Positions 16,688-56,557 of a stretch of 64,000 nucleotides of DNA are shown here, in pieces (position 1 is the first letter of the stretch; each line of letters starts with the position of its first letter). The notes beneath the pieces were generated by a model that was not told the origin of the DNA, did not search any database, and was given only the letters and a program-made list of their open reading frames with translations. The stretch comes from Aurantiochytrium sp. KH105. Its lineage: Eukaryota > Sar > Bigyra > Thraustochytrida > Thraustochytriidae. Location: positions 86,001 through 150,000 of the forward strand of contig BGKB01000048.1 in NCBI GenBank assembly GCA_003116975.1, in the 5' to 3' direction. Made by a program: the position numbers and the translations under genes.

Positions 16688-18757
16688 ATGATACTGCGAA
16701 CGAGAGCACGCAGACATGCCGCGACCAAGGTCATCATCTTGCTCACACTTGCCTTGACATCACAGTCCTGTTCGGGAACAAAGCCGAACATTGTGCTGTA
16801 CTTGGCTGACGATGTTGGCAGCGGCTCCGTGCTCCAACATGCGCCTGAGTGGTCCTTTGTTGACGACATATCAGCACTAGAAGCAATTCCGGAGGCAAGA
16901 CGTATCCAGACACCCACACTCGAGCGCATGGCTCGCGAGGGCAAGCGCTTTTTGCGCGCCTTTTCAAGCTCACCCATTTGCTCGCCTGCCCGCCATTCGC
17001 TCCTTACGGGTGTCTCCGCTGGCAACCAGTATGTTCGTGGCAATGGATACGGACCAGAATCGGCCGACGTAGATATCGAGACGGACCGAACGACCATGGC
17101 CAAGATTCTTTCAAATCAGGGATATGCGACGTATGCTGTGGGCAAGTGGGGTGTTGCTACGAGCGAGACCTCATCGGGAAGTCCGTGCAAGCAGGGATTC
17201 GACAAGTTCTTTGGCAAGTTTACGCACAAGTCGCTTGGGCAGGCTTTTCCACGGACGATCGAGTCATGCACAGCAAGTGCTGCTAATTCTCCCGTATCAA
17301 CCACGTACAGCGAGAATTCTGACGCGAGTGAATCGAAGTGCTCGGAGACGGACGCATGCACGTACTTTGACTTTGCCATCCGCGACACGGCACTCTCTTT
17401 CATCGACGAAGCAGCGGCTGGCGCAACGCCCTTTTTTCTTTACTGGGCCACCACAAGCGGTCATGCTACGAGCTGGGAGTACGTGGAAGATCGTCTTTCC
17501 TCGGGCACATGCGAGACAAAGACCAATCCCGTCCCTTCATATGGGCGATACACAGAGAGCAATCTCGAAGGCACGGGTCGCGTCTCAGCTGCGATCCGTG
17601 GACTGATGAGCATGATGGAGTACACCATTGACGAGGACATGCGACTCTTGCTTGCCAAGCTCAAAGAGCATGAGATGGAGAACTCGACACTCGTCATTTT
17701 CACGAGCGATAATGGCGCTCACAAGGCGGCCTATGCAGATCCGGACTACGATCCACGCACGGACTTTTACGGAACCGGAGGTCTTCGTGGTATCAAGCGC
17801 CGCCTCTACGAGGGTGGTGTCCGTGTCCCCTTTTTGGCGTGGTGGCCGGAGGCCATTCCAGCAGGGACCACGTCAATGTATCCGATTGCCCTGTATGATT
17901 TACCGCTGACATTTGCAGCAGTAGCAGGTATCGCCCCGGACGATGCCTCCCTTGATGCACTTAAAGTTGCAGGCGGAGGTATGAGCCTCGAAGCGCTCTT
18001 GCGCAGCGAAAGTGACACCGCTTCTGCGCTCAATGCCAGCTCGCGCGACTTTGTCTATACGGAGATGTGCTTTGTGGAAGACGGCAAGGAACAGGACGAT
18101 GGTCAGGTATGCCCAGTGATGTGGAACACGTACGCAGGATGTGGCTTCGGTCTCTATGATCTGTCACAGTGGCCAGAAAAGGTGCTCAAGCTGGTCCAGA
18201 ACAAGCCGCGTGAAGGGTCATTAGAGCTCTTTGATATCGTTTCGGATCCTTTCGAGGAGACAGACCTTGCCACGAGCGAGACGGAGGCGTATGAACGGCT
18301 GCAATCGATGTTGTGGAACGTTCGCACGCCGTCGTGCACGGCTGAGGCCTCGTATGAGCCCCGGTGTTTGGATGATCCATGTAATTTTTACACGAGCAGC
18401 TCAGAATGCTTGTCGCAAGAGCACTTTCTATGCGCATGGTCTGGAGACACGTGCGAGGGGTACACGCTGGCGCCTACCTCGTTTCCGACGGGGGTGCCAT
18501 CGACATCGCCAACACCATTTCCCTCAATGTCGCCAACAGGATCGCCAACGCCATTTCCTTCGCAATCGCCAACACCGCCCACGCCCTTTCCAACGGGAGG
18601 ACCGACGGAATCACCTGAGGCGTCGGAATCAAACGGGGGTGATCAGACACTGGCGCCATCATTAGCAGTTCGAGCACGCGCAGGAGAGTTTGCAATGACG
18701 CAAGTTGTGGCTCTTTTGATGATTGGACTTGGCATCGGCATTGATTTCGGGGGCTGA
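16688..18757 (+). CDS. Sulfatase with PT-rich stalk, tandem duplicate
   Basis: This encodes 689 residues from the first in-frame ATG at 16688. The frame is open further upstream but has no ATG, and the 16688 start places a good signal peptide (VIILLTLALT core) at the N-terminus. The sulfatase motifs are NIVLYLADDVGSGS and SPICSPARHSLLTG, with Cys98 as predicted formylglycine. A PT-rich stalk (about 590-640) and a C-terminal hydrophobic stretch (VVALLMIGLGIGI) suggest a membrane or GPI anchor. It shares very high nucleotide identity with the copy at 13464, especially over the first 700 bases of the mature coding region, which indicates recent duplication or gene conversion. It converges on NFU1 with a 187-bp spacer. 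Confidence 0.94.
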   Translation: MILRTRARRHAATKVIILLTLALTSQSCSGTKPNIVLYLADDVGSGSVLQHAPEWSFVDDISALEAIPEARRIQTPTLERMAREGKRFLRAFSSSPICSPARHSLLTGVSAGNQYVRGNGYGPESADVDIETDRTTMAKILSNQGYATYAVGKWGVATSETSSGSPCKQGFDKFFGKFTHKSLGQAFPRTIESCTASAANSPVSTTYSENSDASESKCSETDACTYFDFAIRDTALSFIDEAAAGATPFFLYWATTSGHATSWEYVEDRLSSGTCETKTNPVPSYGRYTESNLEGTGRVSAAIRGLMSMMEYTIDEDMRLLLAKLKEHEMENSTLVIFTSDNGAHKAAYADPDYDPRTDFYGTGGLRGIKRRLYEGGVRVPFLAWWPEAIPAGTTSMYPIALYDLPLTFAAVAGIAPDDASLDALKVAGGGMSLEALLRSESDTASALNASSRDFVYTEMCFVEDGKEQDDGQVCPVMWNTYAGCGFGLYDLSQWPEKVLKLVQNKPREGSLELFDIVSDPFEETDLATSETEAYERLQSMLWNVRTPSCTAEASYEPRCLDDPCNFYTSSSECLSQEHFLCAWSGDTCEGYTLAPTSFPTGVPSTSPTPFPSMSPTGSPTPFPSQSPTPPTPFPTGGPTESPEASESNGGDQTLAPSLAVRARAGEFAMTQVVALLMIGLGIGIDFGG

Positions 18758-38968: not shown

Positions 38969-40118
38969 CGCAGCTGCAGGTCGAGCGAGGCCCGCGTCCC
39001 AGCCAATGGAGAGGCCCGCGCCATCAACCTCATCATTTGTTTTGGCAAAAGCAAAAAAAGAGAGAGACCCGAGAGAAGAAAGAGAAAGAACCAAAAAAAA
39101 GGCCCAACGGATAGGCCTGATCATCACTTAAGGCGGCCGCCGGTCTTACCTGCTTTCCCATCATAACCCTAACCACCCTTTTTAAGCACGCAACTTCCTT
39201 GGGCACCTTAACCGAGCATCGAAAGGGGCTGGCCCCGGACCGCCGGTTCTTGCGCGATCCGCACGGAGGTGTGCAACCATCGCATGGTGCAGCGGAGCGC
39301 AGGGGCGCTCGTACAGGACCGCGCGCGGCGCAGACAAGTCGAGCGCGAAGCTGCTACCAAACACAGCGCAACATAACAAACAAACATACGACCGCACCGG
39401 CATAACACCATAAGCAGGCACGAGAAGGCGCCCGAGTGGCCCCGCCTGCCCCGCGCCCACGCGCCCGCCTGCCCGCCCGCTCGCCCGCGCCTCGAGCCCG
39501 GGCCGGCGCGCGGCGGCGGCCGCCTCCCCGCACGCGCGCGGCGAGCTCTGCGCGCGCGGCGTAGTGCGCGCGCGCGAGCTCTGCGCGCGAGGGCGCGTGC
39601 GTGTCTTGGTGTGCGGTTTTGAATCGAGCTCGCTCGCTCATCCATCCATCCATCCATCCATCCATCCGCGCCTTCGTTCCCCGCCGCGCTCGCTCATCCC
39701 CGCGCCCCGCCCGCGCGCCTCGCGCCGCCCGCGCGCCTCGCGCCGCGCGCGGCCGCCCGCGCGCCCCGCCGCCCGCGCCTGCGCGGCCCCGGCCGCGGCC
39801 GAACGGTCGGAGGAGGCGGCGACCGGCGCGAGGCTGAAAGCAAAGGGCCGAAGAGGGGGAGAAGAAGAAGCAGCAGCAGCAGGGCAGCAACGAGGCCGAG
39901 CAGGGCGCCGCGGGCGTGCCCTGCGCGACGCCTCCGACCCCGGCGCGGAGCCCTAGCCCGCGAGGCGCGCTCCGAGCGGGCGGCTGCCCGGGACCAGCAC
40001 AGCGAGAGGGCGCGAGGATCTCGAAAGGCGCTTGCCAGGGCTGCAGGGGCGCGCTCCTCGGCACTTGCGTCGGCACGGAGGAGTGGGAGCTGGAGCGGAG
40101 GCAGATTCTGTGCGCGAA
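38463..40118. other. GC-rich divergent intergenic region
   Basis: This 1.66-kb stretch separates the RNase T2 start (minus) and the receptor-kinase start (plus). It has a GCCT tetramer run near 38937-38970, a CATC run near 39639-39668 and very GC-rich DNA around 39430-39800. Frames on both strands are compositional artefacts. A short CCCTAACC stretch near 39167 is too short to be a telomeric repeat. Confidence 0.5.
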
Positions 40119-43100
40119 ATGTGTCAGCAGCAGCAGCAGCAGCGGTGGCGGCGACGACGACGACCCAGGTCTAAACGAGCAGGATCGCGCCGTGAAATAT
40201 CGGTGTTCACAACAATCCTGGCGCTGGCATGTCTCGGCGCATTCACAATCTGTTGGGGATCTCTAGGCACCGCGCAAGCCCAAACGACGGCGCCGACGCT
40301 GGCGCCGACGCTGGAGACGACGCTCTCGCCCTCGCTTGCTACGACAGAATCTCCTAGCTTCACATTTGCCCCATCGGCCGCGCCAACGCGCGAGCCCACA
40401 GCCGCCCCGGAGGCAGATTGTACCGCCCTCAGTATCGACTCGGGAAATTCGCGCTACGATACCTATTTGGCTTTCTATGAGGTCAACAATTTTGATCTCA
40501 CAGACTATTATCCGGGAAACTGGACGAGAGCCTCTGGAATTTGTGACACTTCAATCGACCCGACTGCCTATGGCCTCCAAAAAAAGCGAGATCGATGTTT
40601 TTCTTCACCCATTCCGAGCTTTACAGGAAGCTTGAACATCACTGGCATGAATCGAACTATCAGCGGCTTCTTTAACTTTTCAGACTTTGAATACGGGTTT
40701 TGCATTGTGAAACCAAGCAGCGATATGATCAACTCAACAGAGGTGCCCGTGGGCCGCTGTGTTTGCAGGCCAATTCCCATTACCCTTCCCACGGATGCCC
40801 CGACATCGAAACCGACCAGCGCGGCGCCCACGCCCGAACCCACAATAAGCATGGCACCGACCACGCGCCCAACACCATTCCCCTCGATGGCGCCCACACC
40901 AGAGCCCACTCGCCAAAGATTCCCCGGCGTCATTCTTCGTAACGTTAAGGTGGATTTCATGACAATGGTAGAGTTTCTGGCGGATTTCGAAACACCCACT
41001 TCGAACCCCACTTTTTCTCCTACACCAAACCCGACGCCCGAACCGACACTTAATCCCACCGCGAAACCCACCGCACGGCCAACAACAGCTACGCCCACGT
41101 TAATGCCCACGAGCCAACCCACAGTTCAACCTACATCGTTACCCACCTCGTCATCAGACACACTGGGCCCGACCACCGCTTCATCGCTGCAACCAACAAC
41201 CTCACCATCTGAAGTCGCCACAGAAGTCTCGCGCGCACCCTCTGTCGACAGCGCACGTAAGTCAACGGCATTTCTTCGATCCGGGAGATCGCTCGCCGTC
41301 GCCCGGAAATTTCCGGGCGCAAGTGTCCAAGGTCGTGTTGGTAGCGCCTTCCCCCTACAGGTAGGATCAAGGTTACGAAGGAGCTTGCAGCGGGAGACGG
41401 ATCTGGAAAAGGCTGCAATCATCGACATGATTCCCTTTGAAATTTACATTCGTTGCTTTTTCGCTCGAATCCTTGGAACTCGTGTCGAAAATGGAGAGAC
41501 CTTTGACGTAGGCATCTCACTCAGCAATGACACCCTGCTTCTCGACTTTATGCCAATGTTAGAGTATGACTTCACCTGTATGACAGAGTTGGATGCCTCG
41601 GGCACGCGCGAGTGTTCAGTGGATGTGGGCATGCGCGACTTTAGTAAAGAGGCCTTCACTTCCGAGCCCACAGTCTTTCCAACTTTTACTCCGACTGTTG
41701 CTCCGACTTTGGCGCCGACGAATGCGTCCCTTGCCCCGACCTTGGGACCCGGAGTCACAGGGGCCCCTTCTGACACGGAGCGCAGTCCAACTTATGCGCC
41801 TACTCTTCAGCCGACGCCTTCTCCTACACTCGCGCCGACGCTCGCACCGACTGCAATCCCGACAGCCTCGCCGCTATCAACCAACTCTACGACAAACTTT
41901 ACCTTGGCGCCCTCTTCAGCACCCACATCAAACGAGACAATCGTTCCAACGGTGGCTCCGTCAGGGACGTCGAGCGGGCCCGCCCCGGCTCCCACGCCAA
42001 CTTCGCCCCCCAGTAACAACGACTACTCGTTGCAGCTCGTGCTCGAGGATTTATTTGCAGCTCAGTCGTCCGTTGAGGGCTACGGTCTTGACATTTTCTA
42101 TTCACTCTTTTACACGGGCCATTGGAACATGTCTTCGTCGAATATCGTAAACGAGCCAAGCTACATCTTGGTGGATGATGCAGACGATGTTACTGTTGTT
42201 TATTCTGCAGACCCGGAAGATGACGAGCGCCTCTCATGGACAATCGGCGAGTGCCCCATGCTAACCACTGAAGCCTATCGTGCTGCATTGGCCGCTGCCA
42301 GAGACAATGACGAAACCTCTGCAGGGGAGCGAGCCGGTATCGCCATCGGGAGTATAGTTGGCGGTTTAGCCATCTTCATTTTGATCGTTTTTGCCCTGCT
42401 TCGGCGGAGGCGAAAACGTGCATACAAGCAGCGAAGTCGCGGACCGCATGGTGGCTTATCCCGTGCGACCTCAAGTCGCGGAGGATACGAAAGCTCCATG
42501 CCAAAGGTTCGCGACATGTTCAAGGACCTGGAGATCGACGGCACACAGCTCACTCTCGGTACAATTATTGGCCATGGCGCGAACGGCCGCATCTTTCGGG
42601 GTACCTACTGTGGCTCTGAGGTCGCTGTAAAGGAACTTTTCCCCGAGTACACGGCCGGGGGCCCCGAGTTGGACTTGGAGGCTCCGGATGGAGATGCTGC
42701 ATGGGATCCTCGCAACCAAATTTGGCGCGAGGTGCGCAATCTGCGACTCTTACGTCATCCCAACGTAATTCAGCTCTATGGCTGCTCGCAGACCAAAAGC
42801 GACGACTCATCCGAGTGGCGCTTCCTTGTCATCATGGAGCTGGGGGCTTGCAGTCTTCGCGACCTCCTTAACGACGAGGTCGCCCCGGGGTATCTGCCCT
42901 TTACTTTGTCGGACTTTGATTATACGCGCAAGCTCGTCTTCATGAGGGAGGTCTGCGCGGGCCTCGCCTACATTCACGCCTGTCAACTGATTCACTTTGA
43001 CATCAAGCCAGAGAACATTCTCATCAACAGAGTTGGCCAGGCCAAAATTTGCGACCTTGGCATCGCCAAGCTTTACGCGGGCCCCAATAAGACCATCAAC

Positions 43101-46100
43101 ATGACTCTGTCCACCATGGGCGGCACACCGCCGTACATGGCTCCCGAGCTCCTGCGTGGTGTGATGGACGAGGTCGGCGTTGCCGTCGATGTTTATGCCT
43201 TTGGCATGGTGCTTTGGCAAGTCTTCCACCCAGAAGAGACACCGCACCCACAGCTTTGGAGTGTGGCCAAACTCTTTCACGAGGTAATGATATGCGGCTA
43301 CCGTCCAGACATTGACGAACATGTCCCAGAAGGCGTTGTCGATATCATCACGCGATGCTGGGACGCCGACTCGCGCAACAGGCCTGCCCTCTCTTCACTG
43401 CTCGCCGAATTTGAGAGACTTATTGGCCCCATTGCCCAAAGCACCTCGTCGCCTCGACGATCGCGCTACATGTCGAACGAGGACATTGGGGTTCTTCAGG
43501 TTGGGGAGAAGGCGCTCATTTGGGAGCACGCCCAACGTCGCTTTGTGCCTTGCATCGTTGAGGCGCTCGCCACGGACCAAGACCTCGAAGCTCTTCGCTA
43601 CACGGTGCTCATGGACGAAAAGGAGTACATGCGCGGCGAAGAGGCGCGTGAGCAAGTCGTCGTTGAGTACATTGGACCCGACGAGGGGGACGATGATGAC
43701 GAGGAAAACTCTTTGGACGCAGGCGCTCGCAGGGACCAGTCCGGCGACTTTGAAGATGAAGGGGGTGATCAGGCGCCCCAATCTGGCGTGCCGAGCCACG
43801 GCGATGGCGAGACTGATCCTTTTCCCCTTTGGGTTCTTCGCCGAGAGGACGTTCCACAGTCGTTTTGTCGTGCGATCGATCCGGATACTCCTTATGACTG
43901 GGTGTCGAGATTTCAAAGTCTCTCGAGACTCGCAGCGATGCACTTTCGTCAGGTGCTGCAGTATAACGATGCTGTCTTTCGAACGACAGCCAACACGATG
44001 GCGCAAGCAGCCGCAAATCCGCGACTCGCAGGGCCCGATCTTTCCTTGGATTTCGAGGACGAACTCAAAGTTTCGGCTGAACAGAAGAACTGGCTGGAAA
44101 CCTCGTTTGTTGCGTACAAGGATGGAAGCGACCGCAAAGGCAGCAGCGTCGCGGTGGCCCCGGCATCCACCTCTTCGACTCCCAAAAGCACTTCCGAGGC
44201 CGGGGAGGTGGACATGTTTGAGAATGACAGAATGACGGTTGTCAAATTTGCCGATCTCATCAAGCTTGGGCCGTTTATCCGCTACCATCGCTGCTCGGCG
44301 GCGCTGCATCTGCCGACCTTTGTCCTCGTGGCCGTCAAGGAGGTACCCGTTGGGAACCTGGACACAGCACAGATTGCCGTGGAACAGATCCTGTCGCAGT
44401 GGAGATCATTGTGTGGATTGTGTCAGCCCGAATTCGCTCCCGGGGCTCTTTCGTATGGCGAGGCGCGCATCGCGGCTCGCGAGTTTAGTGCCTGCCCGGA
44501 GCTGGCTAATCTGTACGGATGCTATTTCGACACTTCCGAGCAGACAGTCTCTCTCCTCGTCGAGTACATGGACGGCGGGAGCCTGCAGGACGTGCTGCTG
44601 TCGGAGCACACGCCGCCTTACGATGATGACGCCGACGGCGGAGATGGTCTTGCGCCGTTGCGCGATTCTTTCCGGAGCGCGCAAGACTTGAACGAACACG
44701 GTACACTGAGCTCGGGAGTCGACGCGACTGCTGAAACGAGCGAGCCTGTGGAGTCTCCGTTGGACGGGGGGGCTCACGCGCGGCACAAGCGGGAGGCATC
44801 GCAACAATTTGAGGAGGTCGATGAGCTCGTGGCGCACTTTGGAGGCCAGCCCGATATGATGGTGGGCCCGTGCGCTCTGTGCGACGAGCGTCTACTCTTG
44901 ACCATTGCTCGCCGTGTCATGCGCGCGCTCGAGTTTTTGCATGAACAAGGATGCATCCACGGCGAAGTCAAGCCTTCCAATGTGCTCTTGAGCATGCGTG
45001 GCGGCATCAAGTTGGGCGGTTATGCAATGAATGGTGCTTGGAGGGATCACGAGGATGTGGAAGGTGTCACCTCTGTGACGTTGGCATATGCCTCGCCGGA
45101 GCAACTGCAGGGAATTCCAACGACGTCCGCGACAGACGTATGGGGTCTGATGATGACTTTGCTGACCGCCGCCCTCGGGCGCCACCCGTTCTGGTACATG
45201 GTTCGCAACGGACGCAGCCGCGATGCGATTGTCCCGGACCTGCTCAAAGCCTTTTCCAAGTATTCCCCTCTACATCTCCCTGAAGAGACCCCGTTCCCTG
45301 CACCTTCAATGTTTCCTTATCCGTACGAGGCGTCCTGCCAGTTTTCTGCCGAGTTTTCTGACTTCATCTCGCAAGGGCTGCGTTTTGAGCCAGAGGACCG
45401 GCCAACGATTGACGAACTTTTGCGCCACCCTTGGATGCGCCGAGACATTCCTGTCCCGCCTTCTCTTGCAGAGACGGAGAGGACCCTGCTCGATTCAGAG
45501 GAGCGCTTTGTTGACGAGATTCTTGAGGAGGTCATTCGCAGACTTTTGCAGCGCGTCTCTGTTAATCTGGAGTCGCGCCAATTTCTTCAACGTCACCCGA
45601 AGGCGAGCGAGACTCGTCTAGTTCTGCGCTCAGCAAGTATTGCGCGCCTCGCCTCGCAAATGGGAAAGGCCGACGAGGATGTGAAAAACTCCTTCATCTA
45701 CGTCGCCTCTGAGGCCGAGATTCGAACCCGACGTGCTGTAGACACGTCCGGCGGCACCGAATTGGAAATGTGGTTGCAAAATCAGGCACGTGAAGTGGCC
45801 GCAAGTCCTCCACAAGAACTGCCACCGCGGCCCATCAGTTTGACCCAGGACTCTGGACAGCAGCCGCCGCTTCACGACGTCCCGCAGGACCAGCTCCCCC
45901 CAAAGGAACTCCCTCCAAAGTCGTGGAAGGTCCGAAAGTACGAGGCATCGTTCACCTTTCGAAGTACTGACGGCGAGGATGAGAATGACGCGAACAGCGA
46001 CTTTAAAGCTAGTCTGGCTGAAGCGCAGTCAGAGGCCCGAGAAGTTTCTGAAGACGCCATCTTTGATCAGGAGAAAGCCGACGAAAGTGAAGAAGATACA

Positions 46101-46358
46101 GCTGGCGTGGAGGCGGAGGCAGAGGCGAGCGACGTGGGTGCCCACGGATCCTTGTCTCGCGATTCGTCCATTCTGGGTCTGCCACTGCCGCCGCCGCTGC
46201 CGCCACCGCCTTCTTCGAATCCGAGGGCTGCCTCAGCCAGTCTGGAAGACGTGAGTCCACCATCGTTACCTCCCAAACCCGAATTTCTCAAGAGTCCGAG
46301 CTCGCGCAGCAGTGGTTCTGCGTCTCCTTCTTTCCAGCCTGGTCGCGACCAAGAGTAG
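40119..46358 (+). CDS. Giant receptor with tandem kinase and pseudokinase domains
   Basis: This encodes 2079 residues from the first in-frame ATG at 40119. A basic N-terminus and hydrophobic segment (FTTILALACLGAFTICWG) act as signal peptide or anchor. The ectodomain (about 50-738) alternates PT-rich stalks (about 50-97, 222-266, 294-344, 514-631) with Cys-containing modules bearing N-glycosylation sites. A single membrane span (about 739-763) ends in RRRRKR. Kinase 1 (about 805-1105) has VAVK Lys838, HFD Asp961 and DLG Asp979, so it looks active but is a non-RD kinase, probably TKL-like. A linker module (about 1128-1185) follows. Kinase 2 (about 1371-1780) keeps Lys1407 but has HGE (1614-1616) for HRD and GGY from Gly1633 for DFG, so it is probably a pseudokinase. 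The tail is acidic and Pro-rich (PPPLPPPPSS). Confidence 0.9.
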   Translation: MCQQQQQQRWRRRRRPRSKRAGSRREISVFTTILALACLGAFTICWGSLGTAQAQTTAPTLAPTLETTLSPSLATTESPSFTFAPSAAPTREPTAAPEADCTALSIDSGNSRYDTYLAFYEVNNFDLTDYYPGNWTRASGICDTSIDPTAYGLQKKRDRCFSSPIPSFTGSLNITGMNRTISGFFNFSDFEYGFCIVKPSSDMINSTEVPVGRCVCRPIPITLPTDAPTSKPTSAAPTPEPTISMAPTTRPTPFPSMAPTPEPTRQRFPGVILRNVKVDFMTMVEFLADFETPTSNPTFSPTPNPTPEPTLNPTAKPTARPTTATPTLMPTSQPTVQPTSLPTSSSDTLGPTTASSLQPTTSPSEVATEVSRAPSVDSARKSTAFLRSGRSLAVARKFPGASVQGRVGSAFPLQVGSRLRRSLQRETDLEKAAIIDMIPFEIYIRCFFARILGTRVENGETFDVGISLSNDTLLLDFMPMLEYDFTCMTELDASGTRECSVDVGMRDFSKEAFTSEPTVFPTFTPTVAPTLAPTNASLAPTLGPGVTGAPSDTERSPTYAPTLQPTPSPTLAPTLAPTAIPTASPLSTNSTTNFTLAPSSAPTSNETIVPTVAPSGTSSGPAPAPTPTSPPSNNDYSLQLVLEDLFAAQSSVEGYGLDIFYSLFYTGHWNMSSSNIVNEPSYILVDDADDVTVVYSADPEDDERLSWTIGECPMLTTEAYRAALAAARDNDETSAGERAGIAIGSIVGGLAIFILIVFALLRRRRKRAYKQRSRGPHGGLSRATSSRGGYESSMPKVRDMFKDLEIDGTQLTLGTIIGHGANGRIFRGTYCGSEVAVKELFPEYTAGGPELDLEAPDGDAAWDPRNQIWREVRNLRLLRHPNVIQLYGCSQTKSDDSSEWRFLVIMELGACSLRDLLNDEVAPGYLPFTLSDFDYTRKLVFMREVCAGLAYIHACQLIHFDIKPENILINRVGQAKICDLGIAKLYAGPNKTINMTLSTMGGTPPYMAPELLRGVMDEVGVAVDVYAFGMVLWQVFHPEETPHPQLWSVAKLFHEVMICGYRPDIDEHVPEGVVDIITRCWDADSRNRPALSSLLAEFERLIGPIAQSTSSPRRSRYMSNEDIGVLQVGEKALIWEHAQRRFVPCIVEALATDQDLEALRYTVLMDEKEYMRGEEAREQVVVEYIGPDEGDDDDEENSLDAGARRDQSGDFEDEGGDQAPQSGVPSHGDGETDPFPLWVLRREDVPQSFCRAIDPDTPYDWVSRFQSLSRLAAMHFRQVLQYNDAVFRTTANTMAQAAANPRLAGPDLSLDFEDELKVSAEQKNWLETSFVAYKDGSDRKGSSVAVAPASTSSTPKSTSEAGEVDMFENDRMTVVKFADLIKLGPFIRYHRCSAALHLPTFVLVAVKEVPVGNLDTAQIAVEQILSQWRSLCGLCQPEFAPGALSYGEARIAAREFSACPELANLYGCYFDTSEQTVSLLVEYMDGGSLQDVLLSEHTPPYDDDADGGDGLAPLRDSFRSAQDLNEHGTLSSGVDATAETSEPVESPLDGGAHARHKREASQQFEEVDELVAHFGGQPDMMVGPCALCDERLLLTIARRVMRALEFLHEQGCIHGEVKPSNVLLSMRGGIKLGGYAMNGAWRDHEDVEGVTSVTLAYASPEQLQGIPTTSATDVWGLMMTLLTAALGRHPFWYMVRNGRSRDAIVPDLLKAFSKYSPLHLPEETPFPAPSMFPYPYEASCQFSAEFSDFISQGLRFEPEDRPTIDELLRHPWMRRDIPVPPSLAETERTLLDSEERFVDEILEEVIRRLLQRVSVNLESRQFLQRHPKASETRLVLRSASIARLASQMGKADEDVKNSFIYVASEAEIRTRRAVDTSGGTELEMWLQNQAREVAASPPQELPPRPISLTQDSGQQPPLHDVPQDQLPPKELPPKSWKVRKYEASFTFRSTDGEDENDANSDFKASLAEAQSEAREVSEDAIFDQEKADESEEDTAGVEAEAEASDVGAHGSLSRDSSILGLPLPPPLPPPPSSNPRAASASLEDVSPPSLPPKPEFLKSPSSRSSGSASPSFQPGRDQE

Positions 46359-47604: not shown

Positions 47605-48475
47605 ATGGGTCTCGTCGCGAGTTGAACAGAGGCAAGTACGCGACTCTTTCCGAACTTTAGCGCGGCATCGAACGTGCGCTCGCTCCGTGTCCTTGCATTC
47701 GCACTGAGCATAACATCGACCATTGTTTTCATTGTATGCATTGCAATCGTATTGCGAGCGACGCGAAAAGCGAAAGCCAAAGCGGGAGAAGCACTACGTG
47801 AGATGCTGGGGCAAGTCGTCGCGAGTCTCGCTACGGGGGCATGGGGCTTGGTATTCCTCAGTTTCGATGGAGATTGGCAGGGGTTGTGCCATTGTCGGTT
47901 CTTGTGGAGCTGCTTTGTACGTTGTGCAGCATTTTTCCTGCTGCAGAGCGCTCGTTGTTCGCGCCATGGCTGTTCAAAACATCATGCCAAACTGGTATGT
48001 GACTCTACTCAATCAATCTCGTGTGGTACGATTGCTCTTCTTACGATCGTTGCCTTTTCTGGAAAACTCATGTACGTATGCCGAGGAGTTCTGCATTGTT
48101 CGTCTGCACAATCTACTACCCATTTTGGGAGCATTCGCCGACTGTGCTCTCTCGTTGACTTTGCTTTTTCTCTTTGTGCGGCCCGTCATGAGAGGCCACG
48201 TAGAGAGCGACTATCGGCCAGAGCAGTCGAACGAACACCTTGCGCAAGCTTGCGCGTGAAAAACTCGTGCTCTCGGCCAACCCCATTCCTATCGACCATG
48301 ATGTTTATGTCGCTGCTCTCGGTGACCACGCGAGCAATATCGTACAATGAGGGCAACACGGAGTTTATCCCCCGTAGTACATGGATCTTGTAGGCGGATT
48401 GAGCGATGAGCTCATCAATACGTTTAGCAGCTTTAATGATGTTTCGCAAACTTCTCTTTCCGTCGCCACGGTGTA
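47605..48475 (+). pseudogene. Broken member of the 7TM GPCR-like family
   Basis: The sequence aligns with the four intact genes downstream, from the ATG at 47605 to MFRKLLF-equivalent codons near 48470. A TGA at 47623-47625 replaces the CGA Arg codon of the intact copies. A one-base insertion near 47885 shifts the frame after the DGDWQG-equivalent codons. Further indels occur near 48010-48060 and near 48240. The recognisable segments are spread over two or three frames. The counterpart of the CAACGGC upstream element is degraded to CAAAGGGC at 47551-47558. It lies upstream of the TIR gene on the same strand as the intact copies. Confidence 0.9.
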
Positions 48476-48966: not shown

Positions 48967-51900
48967 ATGGGCCGCATCGAAGGCTGGGTGCGCGGCGTCG
49001 CGCAGTCCGCCGACCTCGTGCTGGCTGCCAGCGACGACGACTGCGCCTTACGAACATGGAGCAAGAAGGACGGCGCCCTCGTTTTGGAGATGAAGACGCC
49101 CAACAACGAAGGGGCCAGGACAGTGGCCGTGCAGGGCAACCTCGCCGCCGTGGGGACTGACGACGGCGGCCTCTTCCTGATCGACCTGGCCACCGCCTCC
49201 GTCCTGCACGCCCTCCAGGGCCACACCAGCAATGTCTGGAGCGTCATCTTCGACGGCAACGAGATCATCTCCGGCGGCGGGAGAGACGACAAGACAATCC
49301 GCGTCTGGGACAAGATCAGCGGCCGAGAGACCTTGAGGATCGACGCCGGGTCGTGGGTCTGGAGCGTTGCCGCCCACGAGAACCTGCTCGTGGCCGGGTT
49401 GGGCGACAACACCGTGCGCGTCTTCGACCGGGCCAGCGGCGGCCCACGCCACGTCCTCACGGAGGCGACACGCGAGGTCAGAGCGGTCGCGATCGACGCG
49501 CAGCGCATGGTGAGCGGGTCCGGCGACCACATGGTGAGGGTCTACGCCGTGCCTTCCTTCCAGCTCGTCCGCGTCCTCGAAGGACACATCAACTTGGTGA
49601 ACTCTGTCGCGCTCGAGGGAGACCGCATCGTGAGCGGGTCCGGCGACAACACGGTCAGCCTCTGGGACGCGCGCAGCGGAGACGCGCTGCACGTCTTGCA
49701 AGGACACTCGAGCTATGTGCTGTCGGTCTCTCTCTTGGGGTCGGAGATCGTGAGCGGATCTGCCGACAACAGCGTGCGCATCTGGGACGCGGAGACGGGC
49801 GCCTCGACGCGCGTGCTGGACGGCACGGAGGCCGTGCGGCCCATCGAGGACGTGCTCGGCGGCCCCGCGACGACTGCGGCGGCGAAGGAGGCGCTCCAGG
49901 CGGCGCTGGCGAACGGGGACCCCGCGGAGCTGGGCCGCTGCAAGCTCATGGTCGTCGGCCAGGGCGCCGCCGGCAAGACGTCCACGGTGCGCTCGCTGCT
50001 GGGCATGGAGCCCGAGCCAACGCACAAGTCAACGGTGGGCGTCGAGCTCACGCGCACCGATGCAGAGTCTTGGGAAAAGAGCAAGGACTTCGACAGCGGG
50101 TTCGAACGCCAGGCGTACCGCGTGGCGGCGCTGCGCATGGCCGCGCAGGAGCAAGCGGCGAGCAAGAAGCGGCAATCGCTGCCCAAGCGCGTCTCCCAAG
50201 GCATTTCAAATGTCGTGTTTGGGCGCCGACGTTCTTCTGCCGCGGCGCGACCCTTCGCGGCAGAGGAGCAGGTGGAGCTGGTGCCCGAGGCCGAGATGGC
50301 GCAGCGGTTCGAATTCGCGGAGATCGAGGAAATGGCCGGCCAGACGCAGTCGGGCGAGAAGATCTTCTTTACGATCTGGGACTATGCGGGCCAGGAGGTT
50401 TTTTACGCGCTGCACCACATTTTCCTCACGCGCGAGGGCGGCGTCTTCATGGTCGTCTTCGACATGCAGGAACTCCTCATCAAGCAAGACCAAGCCGTGG
50501 CGTACCTTTCCTTTTGGCTCAACTCGATCAAGCTGCACGCACCAACTGGACCCATCATTCTCGTGGGCACGCACTACGACCAAGCGTCAGTTGACGTCAA
50601 CGACGTGGAGGAGATCCTCGTCGGACATCTGTCTGTTGATGAGAATGCCAACATTGTCACGAACTCTGAGGAGAACCTGAGCTTCTTCCCCATCGACAAC
50701 ATGAGCCCTGAGCCAAATCGTGCGTCGGAATTGCGCGATGCTGTCGAAGCAAGCGCGTCGTCGCTCGAGACCGTCTCGCGAAAGATCTCTCTGCGCTGGC
50801 TCAAGGTGTTGGACGATCTACTGAAGCTTGACTGCGATTATGTGCCTTTTGATACGGCGCAAGAACTCGCGACCAAGTACCACGCCGGTGATCAGACCGA
50901 TGAGCTCTTGAGCTTTTTCCACGAGCTTGGCATGCTCGTCCATCTCCGCGCAACAGACACCTTGCATGACAAGGTCATCCTGAACCCGCAGTGGCTTCTG
51001 GACAAGCTTTCGCGCGTGATTGCGGACGAGATCCATGTCAAGCAGATGCGATACAATCGCGAGCTTCAAAAGGCTGGTCTCAAAGTAGACTTTGCGGTGC
51101 TGCGCAAACGCGGCATTGCCACGCTCAGTCTGCTGAGGTTCCTCTGGGACGATGAAGAAGTCGAATATCTTGTGGAGTTCATGCGCGGCGTCATGCTACT
51201 GTCAAACTGGAATTTTTCCGTAAAGACTCTCCCCAAAGGCCGCCAAGGCGAGCCGCTCTATCTTGTGAGCAGTCTGCTCAAGAACTCGACCGACGCTGAT
51301 CTCGACGCAGAGATTGCGGACATGGACCTCGGTCTGACATGCGTCCTGGACTTTTCCGAGTTTTTTCTTCCGGACGGCGTCTTTGCGCGCCTGCTCTCGC
51401 TTTGCGCTCAGTATAGTGGGAACTTTGGGGCCATCTCGCGTGCACCTCAGCTGGCGGGAAACGAGGCCATCATTCACTTCGGCCTTTCCGTATTTGCGCT
51501 CGAGCAGATCAAGGACAAGATCTGGATCCGCGTAGAGCGCGACTCCAGAGAGCCAGCAAGCACGCTAAAGACGTTGGTGAGTATGTTTCGAGACGCCCGT
51601 GACGCCGTCTTTCAAGATTTGCCATGGGAGCTCCTTCTTCAGTCGCCGAAAAGTGCATCCGTGCTGGTTTCTTACGATGAAGCTGCGCGTGGGTTTGCAT
51701 CATCTGGCATAGAATTTGTCAAGTCAGTGGGCACCAAAGTTGTCAACGTTGCAGATTTTGAGCCATTCTTCAGAGACGGTTCGCTGAAAGAAGACGAGAA
51801 AGACACCGGGACCATTGAGCAGGCTTCACTTCGAGATTTGCCTGCAGGTCTCACATACCATGTCTTTTTGAGCCACCGACAAGTGGACGCCGGTGACACA

Positions 51901-52284
51901 TGCAATCTCATCGCTGAAAAGTTGCAAAATCGAGGTCTCATGGTCTGGTTTGATCAGGAGAGTCAGGGCAATTTGGCAGAGGACGCCATGCGCCGTGGGA
52001 TTCGCGCGTCAAAGTGCTACCTTCTTTTTCTCTCCAAGACAGTCTTCGAGGGCGCGGTGTGCATGGAGCTCGAGACGGCGCTACAAGAGGAGAAACCGAT
52101 CTTGCTCGTGCACGAGAGCGATCCCAATCGAGTCGGCTTCGACACCTTTTCCAGTTACATCAAGTCGGCTCCAGATGCTGCCAAGCACCTCTTTCGCGAG
52201 ACGGAGTCCATGCCATTTCAACGTCGCTTATACTTGGCCGAGGCCTTTTACGAGGAGCTCATCGCACGGATCAATGCCGTTTGA
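48967..52284 (+). CDS. WD40-ROC-COR-TIR protein, candidate immune-type sensor
   Basis: This encodes 1105 residues starting in a perfect Kozak context. About seven WD40 repeats (about 10-305; repeated IVSGSGDNTV-type blades) form a propeller. A ROC GTPase domain follows, with P-loop GQGAAGKTS (Lys337), DYAGQE (Asp472) and GTHYD (Asp538). A COR domain (about 560-900) includes SLRWLKVLDDLL and NPQWLLDKLSRVI. The C-terminus (about 962-1100) is a TIR domain: YHVFLSHRQ, then LQNRGLMVWFDQES, then CYLLFLSK, then CMELETAL. Glu1034 sits where TIR NADases have their catalytic Glu. ROCO and STAND proteins act as nucleotide switches, and TIR domains signal or cleave NAD. A sensor-switch-effector role in self/non-self recognition or cell death is inferred. 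There are no introns and no signal peptide. Confidence 0.93.
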   Translation: MGRIEGWVRGVAQSADLVLAASDDDCALRTWSKKDGALVLEMKTPNNEGARTVAVQGNLAAVGTDDGGLFLIDLATASVLHALQGHTSNVWSVIFDGNEIISGGGRDDKTIRVWDKISGRETLRIDAGSWVWSVAAHENLLVAGLGDNTVRVFDRASGGPRHVLTEATREVRAVAIDAQRMVSGSGDHMVRVYAVPSFQLVRVLEGHINLVNSVALEGDRIVSGSGDNTVSLWDARSGDALHVLQGHSSYVLSVSLLGSEIVSGSADNSVRIWDAETGASTRVLDGTEAVRPIEDVLGGPATTAAAKEALQAALANGDPAELGRCKLMVVGQGAAGKTSTVRSLLGMEPEPTHKSTVGVELTRTDAESWEKSKDFDSGFERQAYRVAALRMAAQEQAASKKRQSLPKRVSQGISNVVFGRRRSSAAARPFAAEEQVELVPEAEMAQRFEFAEIEEMAGQTQSGEKIFFTIWDYAGQEVFYALHHIFLTREGGVFMVVFDMQELLIKQDQAVAYLSFWLNSIKLHAPTGPIILVGTHYDQASVDVNDVEEILVGHLSVDENANIVTNSEENLSFFPIDNMSPEPNRASELRDAVEASASSLETVSRKISLRWLKVLDDLLKLDCDYVPFDTAQELATKYHAGDQTDELLSFFHELGMLVHLRATDTLHDKVILNPQWLLDKLSRVIADEIHVKQMRYNRELQKAGLKVDFAVLRKRGIATLSLLRFLWDDEEVEYLVEFMRGVMLLSNWNFSVKTLPKGRQGEPLYLVSSLLKNSTDADLDAEIADMDLGLTCVLDFSEFFLPDGVFARLLSLCAQYSGNFGAISRAPQLAGNEAIIHFGLSVFALEQIKDKIWIRVERDSREPASTLKTLVSMFRDARDAVFQDLPWELLLQSPKSASVLVSYDEAARGFASSGIEFVKSVGTKVVNVADFEPFFRDGSLKEDEKDTGTIEQASLRDLPAGLTYHVFLSHRQVDAGDTCNLIAEKLQNRGLMVWFDQESQGNLAEDAMRRGIRASKCYLLFLSKTVFEGAVCMELETALQEEKPILLVHESDPNRVGFDTFSSYIKSAPDAAKHLFRETESMPFQRRLYLAEAFYEELIARINAV

Positions 52285-53482
52285 TCGACCTCGTGAGATG
52301 AACATAAACTGATTTTTGACTGTTATGCATGGTAGGCCAGTGCTCGCCTGTGATTTATCATTAGCGAGCGAGCGTGGTGAAGTGAAGTAAAGTCAAAAGA
52401 TAGCGTCGTGAGAGAGTAATGGACCCTGATCAGGGCTTTCATTCACTGCGGCTTGGCAATGAGTAATGACATAAAAGAGGGAAACTCAAAGGCTGCCGCG
52501 TCTGACTTTTTCAGCTGCAATTGCCCTTGTCTTTTTTTCAAGGAACGGTATCGTACTGAATCCGTAGCTTTGAGGCAAGCAATGGGTGCAAAAGTTTGGT
52601 TGCTGGACAGCGATCGAATGGCAGACGACAAGTACATGTTTGCTGCTGGAGAAATGCTCAGGTCATCTTCACTACGTACGATATCATGCTGGGCCTATCA
52701 CTAAAATTCCCCCGCGTCATTCACAAATCTCTTGTGCAAAGAACTGCCATACGGTGGCTTTGATTTTTCAAGAAGCGCTTCAAAAGCTCTTTTTAGTTTG
52801 ATGCGTGCGAAGACAAAGAAGGCTCTTGCCTGTTTGCCATCTTGATTTTAAAAACAATGACCAGATCAATTCTATAAAGTCAAGCCGCGGCGCGATAGAC
52901 GTAAGCAACAGGTTTTATCGACCTTCAACTTGCTAGCTGCTGCGGTAGAGTCTTACGAAAGAGGTGGTTCGTTTCATAGATGCGGTCGCTGTGGTGCTCA
53001 AAGGCAACCCTAATATAGCAACCCAGTCCAGGCCCGGCCGCGGCCCGGCCGTCGGCGAAAATTAGGGCCAACGGACGATCGGCAACGCCCAAGGGCTTAT
53101 GTCTCGACCGCCCGCGAAGGACGCTCGCATGCCAAGACGCGCTACTATCTCCGAGCTGGACCGCACTTCGCAAGGTCAGCAATCTCCCCGGAATAAGCCC
53201 CCAAAGGTCTCCTCGCTAGCCTGAGGAGTGCAGCTCGCGCGAGAGTGCGATAGGTGGAAGGAAGCGGGTGATGAGCCAGCCGCAGCCGCCCCCTCGCCCA
53301 GCCTTACCCATCTTCGTAGCTGCATCACTTCGCCTGACACAGTCACCCACTCGCTCCCTTTTCTCACTTGGCCCATTAGCTTACTCGATTCACACAGACT
53401 CAATTTGCAGTCGCCACAACGGCCAAAAAGGTCGCTTGGTTGCGAAGAAAGCCAATGGCACTCCGACATTCCTAAAAACGCA
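52285..53482. other. Spacer upstream of 7TM gene 1
   Basis: This 1.2-kb spacer has an 83-codon plus-strand frame (52453-52704) with no recognisable domain. The last 70 bp contains the CAACGGC element. The frame of 7TM gene 1 is open upstream to 53228, but paralogue comparison puts the true start at 53483. Confidence 0.5.
53417..53423 (+). promoter_or_regulatory. Conserved CAACGGC element, 7TM gene 1
   Basis: CAACGGC lies 66 bp upstream of the ATG. The same heptamer occurs 55-66 bp upstream of the other three intact paralogues. It also fits the Myb recognition core YAACKG. It may be a core promoter or leader element. Confidence 0.5.
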
Positions 53483-54412
53483 ATGGACTTCGTGGCGGAT
53501 CGATCAGAGGCGGGGACGCGCCTCTTTTCGAGCTTGAGCGCGCCACAAACCGTGCGCGCGCTCCGGAACTTCGCCATCACGCTGAGCGCGGCCCTGACTC
53601 TCTTATTTGCAATATGTCTTGCTTTTGTATTGCGAGCAGTGCGGCGAGCAAAGGCCAAAGCAAGGCGAACGCTGCGCGAGATATTTGGCCAGGTTCTATT
53701 AAGTCTCGCTACATGCGCATGGGCTTCGGCGTTGCTTAGTCTCGATGGAAATTGGCAAGGTTGCGCCATTGTCGGGTCGTTTGGCGCCGCTCTGTACGTC
53801 TTGCAGCATTTCTTTTGCTATCGAGTGCTAGCTGTTCGCGCCATGGCTGTGAGGGATATCATGCCAGACTGGTATGTGACTCTGCTCAATATCGTGTGGT
53901 ACGCTGTCTACTCATGCTTTGGGGCGTTTGTCCTCGCAGTTATCGCCTTTTCTGGTAAACTCATGTATGAGGAGGAGTTCTGCATTGTACGTCTACACTA
54001 TCTGCTTCCCATTTTTATGGCGGTCGCTGATGGGATTCTGTCTTTGAGCCTGCTTTTTCTCTTTGTGTGGCCCGTTTTACGCCAGTCGAGCGAAGTCAGT
54101 CATGGTCAGAGCGACAATGCCTTCGATCAGGCGAGAACGCTGCGCAAGCTCGCGCGAGAGAACCTTGTGCTCTCCGCGATCCCGATTGTTTCCACAATGA
54201 TGCTCATGGTTCTCCTCGCGGCGACCACGCAGGCAAGATCATACAGTGAGGGCAGCACAGAGTTCATTCCTTACATGGACTTATTAGGAGGACTGGGCGA
54301 CGAATTTATCAATACGATTGGCAGTTTCGTCATGTTCCGCAAGCTACTTTTTTCGTCTCAAAAACCCAGGAAGAAAATGGTGAGACCCATCAAAGGCCCA
54401 ATGAAACGTTGA
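53483..54412 (+). CDS. Seven-transmembrane GPCR-like receptor, family copy 1
   Basis: This encodes 309 residues. The start MDFVADRSEAGT is conserved with copies 3 and 4. Seven hydrophobic segments lie near 29-50, 68-87, 94-116, 131-157, 172-199, 228-248 and 262-288. Basic loops after TM1 (RAVRRAKAKARR), TM3 and TM7 put the N-terminus outside and C-terminus inside. Cys94 at the outer start of TM3 and Cys167 in the TM4-TM5 loop (EEFCIV) are in the positions of the classical GPCR disulfide. Arg119 is 25 residues after Cys94, the spacing of the GPCR 3.25 and 3.50 positions, though the DRY triplet itself is absent. I do not recognise a named family or ligand. The C-tail is strongly basic. Confidence 0.88.
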   Translation: MDFVADRSEAGTRLFSSLSAPQTVRALRNFAITLSAALTLLFAICLAFVLRAVRRAKAKARRTLREIFGQVLLSLATCAWASALLSLDGNWQGCAIVGSFGAALYVLQHFFCYRVLAVRAMAVRDIMPDWYVTLLNIVWYAVYSCFGAFVLAVIAFSGKLMYEEEFCIVRLHYLLPIFMAVADGILSLSLLFLFVWPVLRQSSEVSHGQSDNAFDQARTLRKLARENLVLSAIPIVSTMMLMVLLAATTQARSYSEGSTEFIPYMDLLGGLGDEFINTIGSFVMFRKLLFSSQKPRKKMVRPIKGPMKR

Positions 54413-55573
54413 TCTCGGAAGCACTGCAGAGTCACAGAGACAACTGACTGAATAGTATGGATTTGTGTGAATTATTATAAATTGAAAGCCAGTCAGCAAT
54501 TCGAGCTTTGCTCGGATATAGAGTTCTTTTGCATGGATCTAGGAAGAAGAAAAAGTACGCTTGCTATCGTTTTTGGAGAATGTAAAATCGCAAAATTGTG
54601 CGACCACATTTCAAGGCAGAAGAGGAAGAAGAGGGAAATGCCTCAAGTTTGCGAGATCCGAGGGCTAATTTTCTCCGATGTTTCAGCAGTAGTTGGAGAA
54701 TGCTGTTGGGAAAAGTAGAATGGAAGATTAATTTGGGTCTGCGCGACGCATTAGCACAACGACGATATTCTAGCACGGATGAGAAAACGCGGCAACGTGT
54801 ACAATCGAATGAGGGCCGGACAAACAAATAGCTGCTCGATTCTCGTCCTATTTGTGCTCGTTTGCGCCAAAAGAACCAAGCAAAACAAAACCGAAGTAAT
54901 TCGGACCTCATCATCAGCGACTACCTGGCAACCAGTTTGCAACTCATAAGAATTACAATAGCGCTCACACGTGATCTTCTCCTTTTCTCTTGAGAGTTCA
55001 AAAGAAAATTGTCTTTGAGAAAAGTGCTGCCTCATTGCACCTTTGCCTTTTCTAGGTCTCCAAGTAATACCAAGCACCCATCGGCCGGCCTACACAGCGA
55101 GTCGCCCAATGAGGTAAACTCAAAAAATGGCTAAAGATTTCGTTCTGACCGTGACTCAAACACACACAAAAAAAGGACGCACAGTTGCGACGCTGAAAAC
55201 CGGACCGCCCGTGTACCACTGCGCCGCTTTCTCTATAATCAGCTATCGCGCTTTCTTAACGCTTCGTGGTTACACGGCAAGCCCCGTGCTGGAGGAAAGA
55301 CAAGAACAGTGCACTGCGAACGACTTGGAAGGTTGTTCGTCCTTGCCTGATCCGAGTCCGCGTGACGCAGGTCACATCTCCTCAACCAAAACATTTGTAC
55401 GGTGCTTTCGACGCATCTTAGCCACTAGCTGTGCTGTTAGTACGGGCGACTGACAGTCTTCTAGCCTTGTTACAGAGAGTCACTTCTTCAAGTCAAGTCA
55501 TGTTTCAAGTTGAAGTCACAACGGCCAAATTTTGTATTACACTTCACTTTATTTTGTTCCCCCCAATTACAGA
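54413..55573. other. Spacer between 7TM genes 1 and 2
   Basis: This 1.16-kb AT-richer spacer has short open frames that match nothing. Its last 60 bp contains the CAACGGC element. I see no gene. Confidence 0.5.
55519..55525 (+). promoter_or_regulatory. Conserved CAACGGC element, 7TM gene 2
   Basis: CAACGGC lies 55 bp upstream of the ATG at 55574, in the local context TCACAACGGCCAAA shared closely with gene 1. Confidence 0.5.
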
Positions 55574-56557
55574 ATGTCTGTCTTGGCGGATCGATCAGAG
55601 GCGGGGTCACGCTTCTTCACGGGCGTGCACGCGCCATCAGACGTGCTCGCGCTCCGCAGACTCGCCATCACGCTGAGCGCGGTCTTAACTGTTCTATTTG
55701 CAGTATGTCTTGCAGTTGTGTGGCGAGCGGTGCGACAAGCGAAAGCCAACGCAAAATCAAGGCGAACACTACGCGAGTTGCTAGGCCAGGTCATAGTGAG
55801 TCTCGTTACTTGTGCGTACGCTTTGACGCTGCTTAGTCTCGACGGGAGGTGGCAAGGCTGCGCCATTGTTGGTTCCTTTGGCGGCACTCTGTACGTTTTG
55901 CAGCACTTTTTTTGCTACAGAGTGCTCGCAATACGCGCCTTATCCGTGCAAAATGCCATGCCAGAATGGTATGCGACGCTGCTGAATATCGTGTGGTACG
56001 TCATTTACTCGTTTTGGGGACTTGCTGTTCTTGCGCTCTTAAACTTTTCGGGCAAACTCATGTATGTCGAGGAGTTCTGTATCGTGCATCTAAACAGATT
56101 GCTTCCTATTATGGCGGTGATTGGCGATAGTATTCTTTCCTCCACTCTACTCTTTCTCTTTGTGTGGCCTGTGTTGCGCCATTCGAGCGAGGTTAGGAAT
56201 GGAAGGAACGATCAGAACTCCGAGGAGGCGAGAGTTCTGCACAAACTCGTTCGAGAGAACCTTCTTCTCTCCTCGATCCCCATTATTACCACAATGATGC
56301 TTATGGTAGTCCTTGCGGGGACGACGCGGGCAGAATCATACAGTGAGAGCAGCACAGACTTCATTCCCTACATGGAATTGATGGGAGGCTTGTCTGACGA
56401 ATTCGTCAATACGTGCAGCACCTTCGTCATGTTTCGGAAACTTCTTTTCTCGGCACAGAAAAATGGTAGAAGATTAGTAAAGCCCATCATCTCGCTTTCC
56501 CCACTAAGCACTGGCAGAAAACCGGCAAAGCCCAGCGAAATCTCTTCAGCGCATTGA
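55574..56557 (+). CDS. Seven-transmembrane GPCR-like receptor, family copy 2
   Basis: This encodes 327 residues starting MSVLADRSEAGS. The frame is open 14 codons further up, but alignment with the paralogues supports the ATG at 55574. It has the same seven-span layout, the WQGCAIVGSFGGTLYVLQH start of TM3 and the EEFCIVHLNR loop with the second Cys. After the FVMFRKLLFSAQ end of TM7 it has a longer C-tail than copy 1 (about 38 residues after MFRKLL). A two-residue insertion (KSRR) lies in the first intracellular loop. It is the most divergent of the first three copies in TM4. The ligand is unknown. Confidence 0.88.
   Translation: MSVLADRSEAGSRFFTGVHAPSDVLALRRLAITLSAVLTVLFAVCLAVVWRAVRQAKANAKSRRTLRELLGQVIVSLVTCAYALTLLSLDGRWQGCAIVGSFGGTLYVLQHFFCYRVLAIRALSVQNAMPEWYATLLNIVWYVIYSFWGLAVLALLNFSGKLMYVEEFCIVHLNRLLPIMAVIGDSILSSTLLFLFVWPVLRHSSEVRNGRNDQNSEEARVLHKLVRENLLLSSIPIITTMMLMVVLAGTTRAESYSESSTDFIPYMELMGGLSDEFVNTCSTFVMFRKLLFSAQKNGRRLVKPIISLSPLSTGRKPAKPSEISSAH

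Follow-up and report, generated by a model that had tools for sequence, protein, structure and literature searches.

A hypervariable WD40-ROC-COR-TIR gene of Aurantiochytrium sp. KH105 and its large family of candidate receptors

The window gene and its domains

The window analyzed here is a stretch of 64,000 nucleotides from the thraustochytrid Aurantiochytrium sp. KH105 (GenBank assembly GCA_003116975.1, contig BGKB01000048.1, positions 86,001 to 150,000 of the forward strand). It contains a gene that joins a WD40 propeller, a ROC-COR GTPase module and a TIR domain in one chain, and whose propeller and genomic relatives are described below. Translation gives an intronless, stop-free frame of 1105 amino acids. 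The frame stays open 5' as far as an ATG at 48406; the start at 48967 is favored because the paralog L022 has no in-frame ATG 5' of the motif MGRIEG. The features, in window positions, are as follows.

48967..52284, + strand: WD40-ROC-COR-TIR gene, 1105 amino acids, intronless (translation, Pfam)
48967..49836, + strand: WD40 propeller, residues 1-290, a constant framework with hypervariable codons (Pfam; Tako8 and FBXW7 in the PDB; variability)
49471..49773, + strand: codons 169-269, with variable pairs 170/172, 186/188, 210/212, 226/228, 250/252 and 266/268 and conserved framework between them
49957..49980, + strand: Roc P-loop GQGAAGKT, residues 331-338 (motif scan)
50380..50394, + strand: Roc DxxG motif DYAGQ, residues 472-476 (motif scan)
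50569..50580, + strand: Roc THxD motif THYD, residues 535-538 (motif scan)
50794..51048, + strand: COR-A match, residues 610-694 (Pfam PF16095)
51856..52281, + strand: TIR domain, residues 964-1105, with a Pfam TIR_2 match at 966-1048 (Pfam, motifs, PDB profile)
52066..52068, + strand: Glu1034 codon; the residue aligns with the E of AbTIR's NYELDG
44001..46300, + strand: kinase-gene flank that served to identify the allelic contig; a single further copy lies on contig C242, at 97%

All four domains score above their Pfam cut-offs (in brackets): WD40 with 90.7 bits (27), Roc with 73.1 (27), COR-A with 47.9 (35.3) and TIR_2 (PF13676) with 46.7 (28). At E <= 0.01, Roc, COR-A, TIR_2 and Ras were the sole families returned for the Roc-COR-TIR part, SEFIR and COR-B being absent, and neither NACHT nor NB-ARC was among the families returned for the window protein. 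A Roc GTPase followed by COR is what characterizes a ROCO protein, and a Roc-COR profile matched PDB entry 4wnr (E 8.8e-16), the LRRK2 Roc domain (2.9e-13) and 3dpu (5.6e-10), which we take to be a Roco protein. The nucleotide-binding motifs are intact: the P-loop GQGAAGKT and [TS]HYD are each found in 10 of 10 family genes, and DYAGQ is present in the alignment, the motif script's DxxG match in L032 being an upstream DMAGQ. From the start of the P-loop to DYAGQ there are 141 residues, with a basic, serine-rich stretch in between. The first-pass annotation of this locus had described one intronless gene of this architecture with intact P-loop, DxxG and THxD motifs, and the profile searches for TIR/SEFIR and ROC/COR bear it out.

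Glu1034 sits in the TIR motif MELETAL, and its column is invariant in 11 of 11 family TIRs. When a profile of these 11 domains was compared with the PDB, the two top matches were chains that we both take to be AbTIR, one of them named NAD(+) hydrolase. In 7uwg (E 4.8e-5), Glu1034 aligned with the E of NYELDG, presumably the catalytic residue of AbTIR. The alignment and the invariance agree with the earlier placement of Glu1034 in the NADase position, and the TIR domain may act on NAD. Alternatively, it could be a scaffold or adaptor rather than an NADase, signaling by assembly only. The resemblance to solved NADases is weak by sequence, 4.8e-5 being the best E value, the Trp preceding the Glu in AbTIR is missing from the family TIR, and a Toll-related TIR (Toll-receptor-related 2) is also among the weak PDB matches (E 0.054). 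We nevertheless regard a pure scaffold as unlikely, given the invariant glutamate and the two best matches, both to AbTIR chains.

A large ROCO-TIR family

The genome searched is a 76-Mb assembly that apparently holds two haplotypes; both are counted in what follows, so the number of loci is about half of that given. The presence of two haplotypes is suggested by the kinase-gene flank, whose one other genome copy lies on contig C242, and by contigs C6 and C15, which carry three receptor loci in inverse order with spacings of 256989/256725 and 320067/296851. Thraustochytrids have a PfaD-type polyunsaturated fatty acid synthase in long intronless frames; here the PfaD family gave 10 matches, the four over the cut-off forming two equal-score pairs in frames of 1845-2152 amino acids. 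This doubling also speaks for two haplotypes, and the genes support, short of proof, the thraustochytrid origin suggested in the first-pass annotation.

A genome-wide search returned 124 COR-A matches (116 over the cut-off) and 258 TIR_2 candidates, of which 150 were scored and all 150 exceeded the cut-off. Of the 124 COR-A matches, 91 are followed on their own strand by a scored TIR at a distance of 0.55-1.39 kb. The family is large, and the genome-wide count proposed with the first-pass annotation thus comes out in its favor. Ten ROCO frames without WD40, chosen from 20 loci, all contained Roc, COR-A and TIR_2, with the TIR over the cut-off in nine. The remaining 33 COR-A matches prove no absence of TIR, because four of them (L010, L011, L017 and L024) carry TIR_2 on Pfam though no downstream TIR had been scored. 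The window protein itself, searched against the genome, gave 619 candidates, of which 42 were scored and 38 were near full length (hand count, window included). The other 37 are 71-93% identical to the window protein, and 37 of the 38 are stop-free. About 40 paralogous places have variable propeller sites resembling complementarity-determining regions. For comparison, NB-ARC gave two weak matches in the genome, and NACHT 17, with 15 over the cut-off.

Of the 150 scored TIR matches, 58 have no scored COR just upstream, many of them in frames longer than 1200 amino acids, and other TIR architectures may exist in the genome. At C36:345743-352187 and C17:612122-618743 a COR gene, a WD40 copy lacking COR and a WD40-ROC-COR-TIR gene are clustered on one strand. 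Two peptide patterns each, run against prokaryotic contigs (172 pattern matches) and viral contigs (30), gave no relative confirmed by tblastn.

The variable propeller, its alleles and its CaaX form

We assessed variability on 30 aligned propellers, excluding L027, whose frame is broken in the propeller. Of 299 columns, 31 exceed 2 bits and 210 fall below 0.5. By eye the propeller has seven blades, the second of them atypical. The variable residues are mostly paired around a conserved V or D; the V has 0 bits in six of six blades, and the D has 0, 0.21, 0.22, 0.42 and 1.05 bits in five. Over the 435 pairs of propellers, 25.3 of 30.7 variable codons on average differ in amino acid and 0.66 silently, whilst the 208 framework codons show means of 9.1 replacement and 9.6 silent differences, and framework four-fold sites differ in 5.1% of pairs. 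In a wider set (45 of 55 copies, with L121 used despite four stops and L119 and L124, with one and two stops, left out), the share of codons that differ between pairs is 81% at variable positions and 5.9% in the framework, with 44 distinct variable-site signatures among the 45.

A similar geometry is found in the fungal HNWD proteins; papers with a PMC number are cited here for the sections that bear on the point. In HET-D and HET-E, codons 7/9 and 25/27 of each WD40 repeat, around conserved positions 8 and 26, are under positive selection (Paoletti et al., PMC1805685) and were modeled on the top of the propeller (PMC1805685, PMC2873952). Selected codon pairs around two conserved residues per repeat are likewise seen in six blades here, at a pair spacing of 16 (18 in one blade) against 18 in HNWD. 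Since our variable columns were chosen on the very sequences they describe, we used two further tests. Under the HNWD rule, applied after the pattern had been noticed in the alignment and so not blind, the 22 predicted positions in six blades average 2.78 against 0.37 bits, a value as high being reached in 0 of 20000 permutations; 17 of them fall among the 22 most variable positions. The ratio of replacement to silent change (pN/pS) is 2.24 at these positions against 0.68. In ten split-half tests, columns picked on one half gave 1.9-2.5 on the other.

These values bear on whether the family could be an ordinary ROCO signaling family, merely expanded, whose propeller varies through relaxed constraint. 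ROCO proteins outside immunity also have WD40 (PMC11378527), but constraint is intact in the 210 quiet columns and the invariant V of all six blades, the pN/pS of 2.24 falls on the codons that flank V or D, and nearly all near-full-length places are stop-free. We consider this explanation highly improbable.

The WD40 part aligns to FBXW7 (2ovp, E 4e-52), and we mapped residues using a chain offset that we assume to be correct. In FBXW7 the cyclin E degron is bound by R441, S462, T463, R465, R479, R505 and Y519 (PMC10486803). These correspond to window residues 148, 169, 170, 172, 186, 212 and 226, the letters fitting for each. Each of the seven positions reaches at least about 1.8 bits, a level attained by 19 of the 161 positions in the stretch (P 1e-7), the threshold and the stretch (120-280) having been set after looking; FBXW7 residues outside the aligned part, such as R689, are unmapped. 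By this alignment, hypervariable codons occupy positions that line up with ligand contacts of a solved WD40 protein.

Silent sites record a different history along the chain. In ten genes, four-fold divergence is 3-13% in six 50-residue intervals of residues 1-300 and 32-56% in eight of residues 701-1100. The low silent divergence of the first 300 residues indicates that the history of the propeller is more recent or has been homogenized. The COR and TIR blocks are mosaic: the TIR of the window protein is 98% identical to that of L029, 95% to L032 and 69% to L030, despite which the Roc-COR of L030 is close to that of the window protein.

To compare alleles, we paired copies by flank similarity of 75-97% (over short stretches in some cases) and by collinearity, and the window gene by its kinase flank. 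Thirteen of 18 pairs were retained, including those with L119 and L124; four were dropped as frame-broken (L041/L138 with 17/32 variable codons different, L128/L135 with 16/31, L047/L126 with 25/33 and L120/L129 with 27/31), and L056/L059 (1/35) was dropped since it had been paired by similarity. Four of the retained pairs differ at 0-4 variable codons; in the other nine, 22-30 of 33-35 are different. In the framework, both classes have similar numbers of silent differences (means of 5.3 and 4.8 of about 135 codons). None of the 1467 pairs outside the allelic list shows fewer than 16 differences at its roughly 34 variable codons. The allelic pattern is consistent with some loci being under diversifying or balancing selection and others being conserved.

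The window gene and its copy on contig C242 (L029) differ at 25 of 35 variable codons. Their allelism is opposed by the nearer flank, which lies in a repeated element resembling a seven-transmembrane (7TM) protein gene: on C242 this flank is 100% identical to contig C122 over 195 bases, against 97% over 98 to the window contig (C48), and of the other copies, the C242 propeller is closest to that on C122 (L125), at 16 differences. C48 and C242 are still favored as alleles because the kinase flank is found only on both. L029 is in frame only from about codon 3, and this allele may be broken or start elsewhere.

Several sources of the variety were rejected. Whole-propeller copying between loci is at odds with the minimum of 16 differences among non-allelic pairs, and shuffling of loops from a shared pool is not the main source, with 13-28 distinct loop states in 30 copies. 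Adjacent loops are shared jointly at about double the expected rate (0.081 against 0.039), and some short-tract exchange is likely, without explaining most of the variety. Random rewriting of whole codons is countered by the third bases: where the residue allows a choice, they are kept in 1112 and departed from in 204 cases at variable codons (7912 and 402 in the framework). The mostly retained third bases indicate selection on amino acids. Silent change affects 12.2% of same-residue pairs at variable codons against 4.8% in the framework, and the silent proportion (pS) is 0.26 against 0.07 at other codons, a difference that is partly a counting artefact.

A dedicated mutational process might instead rewrite the variable codons as a set, beyond selection on ordinary mutations, with an outcome like that of prokaryotic diversity-generating retroelements. 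The split among allele pairs at similarly low silent framework divergence and the floor of 16 differences among all other pairs are in its favor, as is a 39-nucleotide stretch of framework flanked by variable pairs (chosen as the most conserved of ten), which recurs at 60 places with up to three mismatches and letter-perfect at 37 of them (0 matches when read backwards). Weighing on the other side, most third bases are retained, amino-acid selection is a sufficient explanation, and two of the four frame-broken pairs are intermediate (16/31 and 17/32). Diversity-generating retroelements work by template-adenine mutagenesis with a template repeat and a dedicated reverse transcriptase, and the third codon bases here do not look randomized. 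We hold such a process to be improbable.

The 60 copies of the framework stretch have COR downstream in 49 cases and none in 11. Seven of these 11, together with L059, encode open proteins that share the variable sites and have a CaaX-like box at their end: CSIL in L056, L057b, L058, L143 and L144, CSIQ in L057a, CLIL in L059 and CLVL in L145. L141 and L142 have a stop before the box, and L139 and L140 were not recognized by the frame filter. A few receptor genes, among them ones on C148, C26 and C137, have tail-like matches about 1 kb 5' as well. Some of the eight CaaX proteins are probably allelic to one another, and the two haplotypes do not seem to carry equally many tandem CaaX propellers (L057 on C259, L143 on C235); L143 corresponds to the second C259 copy by sequence and to the first by its upstream flank. 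The argument that CaaX propellers are more conserved than the TIR type (Fisher p 0.06) was withdrawn as circular, because L056/L059 and L057b/L143 had been matched by their own similarity and only L141/L142 rests on flank.

Elsewhere in the window, genes for 7TM-like repeated membrane proteins flank the receptor gene at 47674-48393, 53228-54412 and 55532-56557, the upstream copy looking broken, and the flanks of copies on C44, C74, C122 and C242 resemble this element. The receptor gene adjoins a 2108-aa frame with PT-rich repeats and kinase domains (40032-46358). Further away are a 1395-aa frame with fn3, WD40 and LysM matches (28-4212) and three sulfatase genes in close proximity (9143-11230, 13464-15683 and 16574-18757).

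A diversifying receptor repertoire

We propose, with a probability of roughly 0.65, that the window gene is a member of a large, diversifying repertoire of intracellular receptors analogous to nucleotide-binding leucine-rich repeat receptors (NLRs), with a variable sensor, a GTPase switch and a TIR effector. NLR-type anatomy, meaning a variable sensor, switch and effector in one chain within a large diversified repertoire, is present here as anatomy alone. Each propeller would bind a different protein ligand, a pathogen molecule or non-self variant, via its variable face; binding would change the nucleotide and oligomeric state of Roc-COR in a GTP-dependent manner; and the C-terminal TIRs would cluster and act on NAD+, leading to a defence or cell-death response. 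Within this system the CaaX propeller-only proteins may serve, anchored in the membrane, as partner, decoy or ligand. NADase activity, ligand binding and an immune role are putative for the window protein. A stronger version is improbable in our estimate: that a dedicated diversification process in a unicellular eukaryote exchanges the recognition codons of each locus as a set while the framework stays constant, and that TIR-armed receptors are paired with membrane-anchored CaaX propellers bearing the same kind of variable face.

Several observations count against the proposed repertoire. Besides the features of the TIR domain that would suit a scaffold, COR-B went undetected, the HNWD rule was not applied blind, blade 2 and the second half of blade 1 break that rule, and the four allele pairs conserved at variable sites mean that not all members diversify.

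Members of the NLRs and of the wider signal transduction ATPases with numerous domains (STAND) are recognized by a NACHT or NB-ARC NTPase, neither of which Pfam returned for the window protein at E <= 0.01. It may be called NLR-like in its working only, by analogy: the sensor-switch-effector order noted in the first-pass annotation stands as a parallel, with ROC-COR in the place of NACHT or NB-ARC, and membership in the NLRs does not. Plant TIR-NB-LRR proteins, animal NLRs and APAF-1 share the logic of sensor, nucleotide switch and effector, and APAF-1 likewise senses with WD40 (PMC7159879), but the switch is a STAND ATPase in these receptors and a Roc-COR GTPase module in the window protein. 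What the window protein has in common with SARM1 and bacterial TIR NADases such as AbTIR is a TIR by profile and the aligned Glu; they differ in their partner domains, and the similarity in sequence is weak.

The closest parallel for the sensor is the HNWD family with HET-D and HET-E of Podospora anserina, where a WD40 sensor likewise has an otherwise uniform framework and pairs of selected codons on either side of a conserved residue (PMC1805685, PMC2873952, PMC12222747). HNWD proteins combine it with a NACHT switch and a HET effector, which excludes the window protein, with Roc-COR, TIR and the sensor first, from that family. In the cited sections they exchange repeat units within and between genes, whereas here each blade has its own framework and third-base signature. 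These fungal proteins serve allorecognition, and the propellers might have a similar role, distinguishing self and non-self forms of proteins of their own species in the way HET-D/E do for HET-C, for instance when cells touch or fuse, rather than sensing pathogens. The shared geometry of variable sites and the strong differences in nine of 13 retained allele pairs point that way. The family is, however, larger than the fungal one, for which 10 members were counted in 2007 (PMC1805685), and no sign of cell fusion and no ligand gene was found here. We therefore see allorecognition as a tentative and somewhat doubtful alternative to pathogen sensing.

Among ROCO proteins, the brown-algal candidate immune receptors also come from stramenopiles and combine ROC-COR with a repeat sensor that diversifies, with sites under positive selection; they differ in that leucine-rich repeats (LRRs) lie in shuffled 72-bp exons, LRR-ROC-COR is the sole architecture described, and 9-47 genes occur in multicellular species (PMC11378527). 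Chondrus crispus shares the union of ROCO and TIR in a TPR-ROCO-TIR protein, with TPR in place of WD40 and five ROCOs in the species (PMC11378527); no variable sensor sites are mentioned for it in the cited sections. For unicellular relatives in the stramenopile-alveolate-rhizarian (SAR) group, the cited sections of the same paper give at most four ROCOs, naming Schizochytrium aggregatum among such species. ROCO-TIR proteins (Chondrus), diversifying LRR-ROCOs (brown algae) and hypervariable WD40 receptors (fungi) are thus already known from these sources. Our literature search, which did not cover most subscription journals or bioRxiv preprints, found no published report of hypervariable WD40 combined with ROCO and TIR at such a scale.

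If the proposed repertoire is real, it would conflict with the published view that unicellular relatives of brown algae have at most four ROCOs (PMC11378527, as cited above). It would mean that fungi, with NACHT, and a labyrinthulomycete, with ROC-COR, independently came to concentrate diversity on the ligand positions of a protein ring, and that a TIR effector replaces HET. Receptor diversification, ROCO switching and TIR signaling could then be studied together in one unicellular organism, and the repertoire points to elaborate recognition beyond animals, plants and fungi.

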